Shown here in pieces: positions 16,161-19,240 of a stretch of 47,565 bases of DNA. The notes under the pieces are model-generated. The model was not told where the DNA came from. It did not search any database and saw nothing but the letters and a program-made list of their open reading frames with translations. Positions within the stretch are counted from its first letter, which is position 1. Each line of letters opens with the position of its first letter. The position numbers and the translations under genes are program-made. The stretch is taken from positions 1 to 47,565 of IMG/VR virus record IMGVR_UViG_3300005618_000026, one strand, 5' to 3'. Source of the stretch: a virus.

Positions 16161-18059
16161 ATGCCAATAATTCAAAATACTACAAATCATGCAATTCCAG
16201 TTGTAATCAGTGGTTCAAGAAAAACTATTAAGCCTGGACAAATTTTGAATGGTCCTCAAGCATTACTTTCAATTCCTGGACTTCAACTAGTTCAATCTGA
16301 AAAGAAAATTATTATTCCAGATGCAGTAAACAAGCGGGTTGAAGATGTTATGTCATCTGAGACAAGCGTACAACCTACACCACCTGAAAAAGTTTCAGTT
16401 AATTTTGAATTTATACAAACGCAAGAGGATACTTTGGAAACAGAAAGTAAATTTAATTCTATTAATACATTTTTAAAAGAATATAGAGATAGAAATGATG
16501 TACCATCAGTAACAATTGGCATATTAACAAAAAATCAATATCAACTTGTCGTTGATTGCTGTGAATCTATTTTCAATAAAGTTCAATATAAGAATGTGAC
16601 ACTTTTTATTATTGATACAGGATCAAATGATCAAAATGTGAGGAATTATTATAAACTTCTTCCACAAAAATGCGCTGATAAAAATTGGACTTATCAGTTC
16701 ATGCAAATTGATCATTATCACTTTAGTCAAAACTATAATTCAGCAGCACGTCAAGTAAAAACTGATTATTTCCTAATTCAAAATAATGATACAGTTGCAT
16801 TGAATGATTATGTTTCTCAAATGATGGTTGTTGCGATCAATCAAAAGGTTGGTTCAGTTGGAACGCGCATGTTGTACAAAGATGGTTCAATACAACATGA
16901 TGGCCAATTCATTTACAATGGCCCTAATGGACAAATATCTACACCAGGACATTTGCATCTAAGAGTTAAGCCTGAACAATTAAATGATCAACAAAACTTT
17001 GGAACACACTTGGTAGACGGAAACACTGCCGCTGGTGTCCTTATGAAAACATCAGAATATATTGCCATTGGTGGTATTGATGAGGGATATAAAGATATTT
17101 TCCAAGATGTTGATTTAATGATGAAAATTACTCCTATGTTGGGTAAATTTAATTATTGTTCAAGAGACGCAAATATTATTCACATTGACAATGCAACACG
17201 ATTAATGCAAGGACATGATCCGAAACGTGCAGCAGCAATGTGGGAAGATACACATTATTTGAAAGATCGTGTTGTTAAAAATAACTGGATTTATTCAAAG
17301 AAACAAGAACCGGTAGATTTTTCATTTATTACGCTTGTTAGAGATACGCAAAAATATAATCAATTCTTGACTTCGCTTTCCCAACAAATGGGTGCTAACT
17401 CTTATGAAGTTATACCTATTCCAAATTACTTTAATCAAATAAATTCTGCTTTTAGAGGATTGAATATTGGTCAAGATATTTCAAACGGTAAATATTTAAT
17501 TTTCTGTCATGATGATATTATTCTTTCAAATAATTGGATTGAACGGTTGAAATATCACATCCGAAACTTAGAAAATAATTCTATTCAATGGGGTGTTCTT
17601 GGACCTGCAGGTATAACTATTGGATCTGAACAAGGTGCATATTTCTTAACAACTGAAACAGGCGAAAATATAAAAATAAAAGATTCATCAGTAATAAATG
17701 ATAAAGAAATTTATGAAGTTGGATGCCTAGATGAACTCTGCTTAATTACTAAAAAGTCAACAGGATTACGTTTCTCTGATAGAGAATTGAGTGGATTTCA
17801 TTTTTACGGAGGAAATCTTTGCTTAGAGTCTAAGAGACTAGGATTGAGAAACTTCGCTATTGATTGCTGGACATTCCATCAAAGCGATGGCAATAAAAAC
17901 GTTTCTAGTAAGGAAAAATTTGATCTTTTCTATGAGTCAGCAAAAACCTTTCAAATGTGGTCCATGAAAAGTGGCATAACATCTTGGAGAACAACGACAA
18001 CCAAGTGTTCCGGTCCACGTCAAGAAGACTTGATGATTTTTATAGATAGCCCCGTATGA
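16161..18059 (+). CDS. tandem-domain GT-A (family 2-like) glycosyltransferase
   Basis: Three parts. Residues 1-50 form a small beta domain (IIQNTTNHAIPVVISG) like those in phage virion proteins. Residues 115-375 form a GT-A domain with VTIGILTKNQ, the nucleotide-binding DTGSND (152-157) and a DXD-like NND (208-210), then GGIDEGYKDIFQDVDL as the acceptor/catalytic loop. Residues 385-610 are a second GT-A-like half with FCHDDII in place of the DXD motif and SGFHFYGGNLCLESK. The sugar donor cannot be told; NNDT-type enzymes often move rhamnose or galactose. It follows uvsW in one operon and is the last gene before the RNA candidate. Confidence 0.8.
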   Translation: MPIIQNTTNHAIPVVISGSRKTIKPGQILNGPQALLSIPGLQLVQSEKKIIIPDAVNKRVEDVMSSETSVQPTPPEKVSVNFEFIQTQEDTLETESKFNSINTFLKEYRDRNDVPSVTIGILTKNQYQLVVDCCESIFNKVQYKNVTLFIIDTGSNDQNVRNYYKLLPQKCADKNWTYQFMQIDHYHFSQNYNSAARQVKTDYFLIQNNDTVALNDYVSQMMVVAINQKVGSVGTRMLYKDGSIQHDGQFIYNGPNGQISTPGHLHLRVKPEQLNDQQNFGTHLVDGNTAAGVLMKTSEYIAIGGIDEGYKDIFQDVDLMMKITPMLGKFNYCSRDANIIHIDNATRLMQGHDPKRAAAMWEDTHYLKDRVVKNNWIYSKKQEPVDFSFITLVRDTQKYNQFLTSLSQQMGANSYEVIPIPNYFNQINSAFRGLNIGQDISNGKYLIFCHDDIILSNNWIERLKYHIRNLENNSIQWGVLGPAGITIGSEQGAYFLTTETGENIKIKDSSVINDKEIYEVGCLDELCLITKKSTGLRFSDRELSGFHFYGGNLCLESKRLGLRNFAIDCWTFHQSDGNKNVSSKEKFDLFYESAKTFQMWSMKSGITSWRTTTTKCSGPRQEDLMIFIDSPV

Positions 18060-18150
18060 TATTTTGTACATTGTCCGTTAGCTTGAGTTTTCAAATAGCT
18101 CCAGTTGTAAATTGATTAGGTGAGAAACAAAGCCTTTTCTTTTGAGTCAA

Positions 18151-18395
18151 CGTTAAAAATTTGAGGAAGAGTTTGTGATATTTCCTAGTAGATGAGGCGT
18201 ATTATGGACGTGCCGAGGGGACAAAGGCAAGCAGAAAGTAACATCTACCGCCTATATCATAAGACAGCTCACAGGCGTTGTGTGATGAGTTTCTTCGGGC
18301 CCGAAGAATGGTCAAATATTTCCAGGTCTCCATACAGAGGATAACTCAGTATGGCCTAAGAGATACTCGGCTATTCTTAAAATTTAACGATTTTT
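18151..18395 (+). ncRNA. candidate structured RNA, about 245 nt, not matched to a known class
   Basis: This lies in the only gene-free stretch over 300 bases and is clearly more GC-rich than its flanks. A long closing stem pairs 18151-18171 (CGTTAAA, AA bulge, TTTGAGGAAGAG) with 18371-18389 (CTATTCTTAAAATTTAACG): 17 pairs, one of them G-U, with two G-A mismatches. Inside, in order: GTAGATG/CATCTAC (18188-94/18242-48) around a TGCC/GGCA hairpin; CGCCT/AGGCG (18249-53/18273-77), stacked on it with no gap; the 18-nt palindrome TTCTTCGGGCCCGAAGAA (18291-18308); and AGG-CCATAC-GAG / CTC-GTATGG-CCT (18324-57). A-rich joins (GACAAAG, GCAGAAAGTAA) favour the plus strand, and ATTTTT follows the closing stem. 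tRNA, tmRNA, RNase P and group I intron cores were looked for and not found. Confidence 0.65.
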
Positions 18396-18625
18396 CAGGG
18401 AAGAGCAGTTTTATTTAGAAAAAATTATTCAAGGAAGAATAAGAAGAATAAGAAGAAAAAATACCAAAAAGAAGTTTATATCCTCATTATTTGTAAATTA
18501 TGAATATTCATAGTAATTACTAATATTTTTATTATTAGTAATAACGCCGAAAACACCCTCTTCTTACTTATCCTTTACTTTCGCTACGCTCAAGATAAAG
18601 GACTCGCTCCTTTAGGAGCTTCGTC
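18396..18625. other. gene-free AT-rich spacer with purine tract and two hairpins
   Basis: No coding frame is convincing here. 18430-18458 is a purine-rich run with repeated AAGAAT/AAGAAG units. 18516-18542 is an AT inverted repeat (ATTACTAATA / TATTAGTAAT). 18606-18619 is GCTCCT-TT-AGGAGC, 7 bases beyond the stop of the minus-strand gene; it could end that transcript, but no T run follows. Strings such as CGCTACGCTC and GGACTCGCTCC here are unlike the rest of the window and may be of foreign origin. Confidence 0.5.
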
Positions 18626-19240
18626 TTACATTCTGTTTGTATTTGGTAAGTTATTTTTAAATTTCTTGGCGCCAAACTGTTTTCTTGCAGTAGGACCAAC
18701 AACAATTCCATCGCTACTTTGATCTTTAAAATGACCAAGTTGATATTTACCAAGTGTTGCTTTTTCAACATTTTCTTGAAAAAAGTTTTCTTCATCTGAA
18801 TCTTCAATATAAATTGGTTTCAAAAAACATTTACATGCTGAAAAGTATTCTTCTATTGCCTTTTTATCTTCATCTGATATGTTTCCATCAGGTGCAACAA
18901 TTAATTTATGATTACCTGGTACATTTCCATTTGGATAAGGTATAGCATCAGCTTGTGGATGCACTTTAACAACACCAACAATGACTAAATTCTGATTATC
19001 AGGTGTTTCTGTTGGAATTATTACATCCCATCCCATATCATCAGAAGGATTAATGTACAAAGGTGTTTCTCCATAAGAAAATGGCAAAACAACATCTTGT
19101 CTCCAACGACCGTTTTCACCTTTATGCAACTCAACTGTAACAGGTACGGGGTTTGATGTACCAATATCAACTATCTCACGAAAAGAAGTTTTCTTTGATT
19201 CATTTTCAAAAATATATGTTAAAATACCTTGTGTATTCAT
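18626..19240 (-). CDS. late protein, possibly internal to the head, 204 aa, function unknown
   Basis: No family recognised. The N-terminus MNTQGILTYIFE ends in IFE followed by Asn, matching the (L/I)xE rule of the gp21 protease at the same distance (12 residues) as in T4 internal proteins. Residues 25-110 look beta-rich with an RWRQDVVLPF strand and many Pro; residues 125-160 are acidic and helical. A perfect late promoter and an SD (AGGAT) precede the ATG. A packaged-protein role is suggested by start and promoter only. An alternative is an ordinary late structural protein. Confidence 0.6.
   Translation of the reverse strand: MNTQGILTYIFENESKKTSFREIVDIGTSNPVPVTVELHKGENGRWRQDVVLPFSYGETPLYINPSDDMGWDVIIPTETPDNQNLVIVGVVKVHPQADAIPYPNGNVPGNHKLIVAPDGNISDEDKKAIEEYFSACKCFLKPIYIEDSDEENFFQENVEKATLGKYQLGHFKDQSSDGIVVGPTARKQFGAKKFKNNLPNTNRM

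Follow-up and report, generated by a model that had tools for sequence, protein, structure and literature searches.

Large Structured RNAs in Phages

To our knowledge, only a small number of large structured RNAs have been described from phages, and what they do is still an open question. In phage T4, the stable RNAs C and D, of about 120–140 nt, are encoded in the tRNA cluster and have no known function. Larger representatives are ROOL (about 660 nt) and GOLLD (over 800 nt), which are often located near tRNA islands. Both are ornate RNAs of phages and prophages: phage-encoded, non-coding, multi-helix, pseudoknotted RNAs of unknown function that hold self-complementary loops (PMC12286853). In GOLLD, as well as in the RNA OLE, these are symmetric palindromic kissing loops whose sequence switches between members (PMC12286853).

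The element described here, in a window of 47,565 nt (the whole stretch of viral DNA analysed), shares with ROOL and GOLLD the features listed for both, and possibly with OLE the type of palindrome. In contrast to ROOL and GOLLD, it comprises about 280 nt and lies beside the uvsW–glycosyltransferase (GT) pair, and no tRNA genes were found in the window. Its closed domain (18,151–18,389) does not reach the length of above about 550 nt used to recognize those two RNAs, the entire gap that holds it being 566 nt, and their Rfam covariance models have no match in the window or in its relatives. OLE is bacterial and much larger, and neither its sequence nor its model matches in the window. The T4 RNAs C and D are likewise small RNAs of a T4-like phage, but by description they are shorter and lie in a tRNA cluster, and the window has no tRNA genes. 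Likewise, tmRNA, RNase P RNA, 6S RNA and group I introns are large RNAs structured through pseudoknots or helices between distant segments, but the original prediction could recognize none of them here. This agrees with ARAGORN, which detects zero tmRNA in the window, with the tRNA-like ends and tag reading frame of tmRNA found by neither ARAGORN nor Rfam, and with the models of RNase P RNA, 6S RNA and group I/II introns, none of which matches the window region at E = 10 or below. The Rfam search that had been proposed for the region (Rfam 15) gave no match to a catalogued family at the gathering threshold and, with the cutoff relaxed to E = 10, no relevant one, and the gaps of the relatives gave no match either. 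No description of the element was found in the open-licence literature. We place it as a new family, without Rfam match, within the known kind of large structured phage RNAs of unknown function. The stretch probably encodes, on the plus strand, a free-standing folded non-coding RNA, known so far only from this T4-like clade, which would have its own transcript and act in trans.

Genomic Context of the Element

The window encodes the gene set of a large T4-like phage (UvsY, UvsW, a gp20-like portal, a gp23-like capsid protein, DNA polymerase and UvsX), together with SbcCD-like and ribonucleotide reductase genes. This virus also has a second, longer record (262,529 bases), in which the element is identical. 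The 5′ neighbour is a two-domain GT gene (16,161–18,059; Glycos_transf_2 and Glyco_tranf_2_5), and the 3′ neighbour is g204 (18,626–19,240), a 204-aa gene of unknown function located on the opposite strand and convergent. The gap between them (18,060–18,625, 566 nt) contains no ORF of at least 60 aa, the longest inside having 50 aa. It had been described as the only long gene-free stretch of the window, which holds, since the contig end that looks gene-poor is an open-ended gene. The local richness in GC was also confirmed (G+C of 0.42–0.48, versus about 0.30–0.35 around). Between the RNA and g204, repeated words similar to CGAAG/GCGTAGCG appear in the window (18,540–18,620) and in the relatives L082, L084 and L088, and possibly constitute a two-way terminator.

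A capsid-protein scan of viral contigs gathered about 20 records of relatives, 52–83% identical, in which GT and uvsW were located by protein search and found to be adjacent; two uvsW alignment scans added further loci. About 15 loci with the uvsW–GT order were recovered, each holding a non-coding, structured spacer after GT. In every full copy, a gap without a long frame directly follows the GT stop codon, with the exception of L086, where one extra ORF follows GT and the promoter and the RNA stay together behind it. Convergent orientation of g204 is seen in the window, L082–L084 and L086–L088. The element itself is present in the phage of the window and in at least nine uncultured relatives. 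In spite of this fixed address, blastn searches of the element against named phages and the contigs of the relatives returned low-complexity matches only, and failed to link elements even between phages that share 80% identity in the capsid protein, indicating that the sequence has drifted beyond the reach of blastn.

Several other features were observed at these loci. L113 (9215–9400), L114 (9227–9410) and L115 (9231–9400) keep the promoter, and their structured stretch after GT extends over only about 130 nt. In L084 (3700–3960), tandem A+T-rich repeats, composed of the unit TTGAAATTATTATTAATTA and a second unit, lie 3′ of the RNA. In L083 and L087, the g204 homologue is contained within an ORF of greater length (about 567 aa), which has an inserted stretch and a C-terminal part that by eye resembles a HAD-type phosphatase (FCDMDGVLVDF). 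Finally, uvsW of L092 (reverse complement, 24–1043 and 1240–2133) is broken at the DEAH box: the first ORF ends in FIADE followed by CLHPDSLISMSNGTKKKIKD, the second begins with EDNHNYFAEDVCVSN followed by CHGLK, and a free ORF of 78 aa lies between them. This interruption looks like a naturally split intein. It was read out for L092 only; in L093, L005, L006 and L219 the same interruption is suggested by the break point shared in the protein search.

Architecture of the Element in the Window

The plus-strand domain is enclosed by a long-range closing helix, whose strands are CGTTAAAAATTTGAGGAAGA (18,151–18,170) and CTATTCTTAAAATTTAACG (18,371–18,389). The original prediction had counted 17 pairs in it; RNAduplex does pair 18,151–18,173 with about 18,369–18,389 at −13.5 kcal/mol (−11.4 in a second estimate), which gives the helix thermodynamic support, while the count becomes 19 interrupted pairs. 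Inside, hairpin D is formed by GTTTGTGATAT (18,171–18,181) and GTATTATGGAC (18,199–18,209). Its loop holds the 5′ strand of helix A (GTAGATG, 18,188–18,194), which pairs with CATCTAC (18,242–18,248), so that A and D together make a pseudoknot, an arrangement absent from the original prediction. The prediction of two helices stacked without a gap was correct, as helix A is directly abutted by hairpin B, CGCCT-ATATCATAAGACAGCTCAC-AGGCG (18,249–18,277), with stem strands at 18,249–18,253 and 18,273–18,277 and a conserved loop that in the window reads AUAUCAUAAGACAGCUCAC.

Downstream, hairpin C is the predicted 18-nt perfect palindrome TTCTTCGGGCCCGAAGAA (18,291–18,308; TTCTTC-GGGCCC-GAAGAA), the third longest in the window. 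It is followed by the motif GGTCAAATA (18,310–18,318; GTCACATA in relatives), which is the 5′ strand of helix E, with the 3′ strand at 18,360–18,372 (GAGATA…GGCT). This helix (GGUC…UAUUUC/GAGAUA…GGCU in the window) finds its partner 50–58 nt downstream in four phages, namely the window, L083, L087 and L086, and encloses an apical 3′ hairpin, CCATAC/GTATGG (18,323–18,359). The long 3′ hairpin noticed before is present. The run of five T residues reported after the closing stem is also there (18,391–18,395); it may represent a terminator tail, and it is absent from the terminator listing.

The Pseudoknot Core Is Conserved across Phages

The core pattern consists of hairpin D, whose loop pairs downstream to form helix A, and hairpin B, which follows the 3′ strand of A either directly or after a single base. 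It was examined in 10 phages, window included. In L083, helix A is CTAGCAGA/TCTGCTAG and B is CGTCTG/CAGACG; L087 has the same B stem with CCAACA/TGTTGG in A, and L086 combines GTAATAG/CTATTAC with CGACTG/CAGTCG. In L090 and L092, B is CGG/CCG, and A is AAGATTT/AAATCTT and CTGTTT/AAACAG, respectively. L085, L084 and L082 show the same topology with other loops. With the A/B junction as the anchor for up to nine phages, every one of the seven pairs of helix A occurs as two, three or four types of standard pair, and four types are found at the third pair of B. An absence of compensatory changes in related phages had been set beforehand as the result that would refute the structure; instead, A and B change on both sides and stay paired. 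The loop of B is conserved while its stem covaries, AUAAGRCA being kept in the window, L086, L087 and L092, with one change in L083 and L090, among the six phages aligned. The window thus exhibits both the D/A/B topology and this loop. MAFFT misplaces helix A, which ruled out a four-sequence model that includes the window.

Since this pattern came initially from visual reading of the gaps, two further tests independent of that reading were applied. The first was a covariance model (R1) built from L083, L087 and L086 only, leaving the window out. Its best match in the whole window, on both strands, is 18,235–18,277 on the plus strand (E = 0.0072; the next has E = 1.1), which corresponds exactly to the 3′ strand of A together with hairpin B. 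Chance matches occur elsewhere at E = 0.02–0.5, and the E-value by itself therefore does not decide the matter, but the window match falls inside the single gap in which it had been predicted (566 of 47,565 bases). R1 also matched L103, within uvsW, and L115, within an SbcC-like gene; both were rejected as chance.

The second test was a structure-only scan for D/A/B triples, in which stacking energies were compared with those of 4,000 dinucleotide shuffles. On the plus strand, p was at most 0.01 in L083, L084, L085, L086, L090 and L092, 0.02–0.03 in L082 and L088, and 0.10 in L087; the window, with p = 0.074, is not significant alone. Combined by Fisher's method over the nine relatives, window excluded, the scan gives about 5e-14 on the plus strand and 0.016 on the minus strand. 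In the window, the top triple coincides fully with the visual reading, and in L088 and L092 it partly differs. The DNA pattern of the B loop was also searched for. In viral collections it yielded one extra contig, L273, which reads as coding, and its bacterial or archaeal matches in genome collections, which show no wider match to the element, were taken as chance, an individual coding check covering a minority of them at most.

A Sister Subgroup with a Different Interior

L111, L112 and L118 form a sister subgroup without D/A/B and with a different interior, in which compensatory changes appear at 24 of 75 consensus pairs (25 of 66 with L089 added). Their closing helix spans about 235 nt, similar to that of the window. 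The subgroup is probably related to the window element, given the same address, a 5′ pseudoknot and the closing helix. An H-type pseudoknot at the 5′ end stands out clearly in L082, L112, L118 and L115, and is strong in the last (0 of 500 shuffles as good); in the window it is unsupported (209 of 500). Three extra contigs recovered with the DNA pattern CAACAAATTGCTTTGAC of this subgroup look coding by eye and were taken as chance.

An Independent RNA or Part of the GT Messenger

The element could instead be a cis-acting 3′-untranslated part of the GT messenger, which would protect the mRNA end or end transcription before the convergent gene. We consider this rather unlikely, although the element lies close behind the GT stop codon in nearly all phages and a T run follows the closing helix. 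A promoter-like site just after GT, with 10–11 of 12 matches and mostly better than shuffles, is found in 10 of 16 relatives (among L082–L088, L113–L115 and L118); it has the form TTGAA/T-(15–17)-TATAAT and occupies the same place as a weak site in the window. The latter, TTGAGT-17-TGTAAA (18,083–18,111, plus strand), has 8 of 12 matches and is not better than chance (274 of 300 shuffles as good), and in L089, L111 and L112 no promoter was seen between GT and the RNA. An independent promoter for the window hence rests on analogy with its relatives. Against a role in the messenger, besides the strong sites of the relatives, the extra ORF of L086 parts GT from the promoter plus RNA, and a fold with a conserved unpaired loop is far more elaborate than a terminator or a stabilizer needs. 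Nor is the RNA a leader of g204: riboswitches and other cis-regulatory leaders precede the gene that they regulate and share its strand, and g204 is convergent on the opposite strand. The promoters of the relatives, the arrangement of L086 and the convergent g204 together favour an independent RNA over a tail of GT or a leader.

The Self-Complementary Tip

The tip of hairpin C had raised the suggestion that the RNA forms dimers. Assembly into dimers or larger RNA-only complexes via GGGCCC, like the kissing loops of OLE, ROOL and GOLLD, has some appeal, as symmetric palindromic kissing loops are used by OLE and GOLLD, and a change of palindrome between members would have a precedent in them (PMC12286853). 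The 18-nt palindrome of the window presents GGGCCC as a hexaloop, and L092 holds TCTGCGCAGA (10 nt) in the same place. In contrast, the palindromes of L083, L086, L087 and L090 are no longer than expected by chance, and combined without the window the relatives give p = 0.14. Dimerization through this poorly conserved tip is possible; as an explanation of the element, such assembly seems unlikely.

Folding Energy and Coding Potential

The single-sequence tests on the window are modest. On the plus strand, the folding energy of the element departs only mildly from that of shuffled sequences (z about −2.2), 5 of 200 of which fold equally well. The reverse strand behaves similarly (z about −2.4), so a claim from the single sequence alone would have been weak. 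Unconstrained folding favours other pairings: its minimum-energy fold lacks helices A and B, whose probabilities are 0.10 and 0.0006, respectively. A chance fold in a non-coding spacer would fit such a modest score, similar on both strands, but it is very improbable in view of the independent model match, the conserved topology, the changes on both sides of the helices and the strand asymmetry across relatives. A short coding gene is more improbable still, since the ATG-started frame of 50 codons that exists (18,192–18,344) crosses the pseudoknot, the changes follow base pairing, and no long frame was seen in the gaps of the relatives.

Implications for the Phage RNA Family

The element has kept its shape although its sequence is hardly recognizable between phages any more, and it is therefore probably a real RNA gene. 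As read from the sequences, the conserved core comprises the D and A pseudoknot stacked directly on B, with its conserved loop, followed by C, E and the closing helix. According to the mechanism that we propose, the element would be transcribed as its own RNA, as suggested by the sigma70-like promoter that most relatives hold between GT and the RNA, and would fold into a compact pseudoknotted body. It may then act in trans, offering the conserved unpaired AUAAGRCA loop of B and GUCACAUA to a partner, either protein or RNA, in the course of infection. A more ambitious version appears doubtful to us: a new ornate phage RNA, abundant in infection, with a double-pseudoknot body and self-assembly via its palindromic tip, a smaller analogue of ROOL and GOLLD with its own fold, kept across the lineage for an essential task.

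RNAs of this kind can escape notice by drifting beyond sequence search. The element has a core that is defined, always occupies the same genomic address and comes in diverged natural variants, which make its fold testable.
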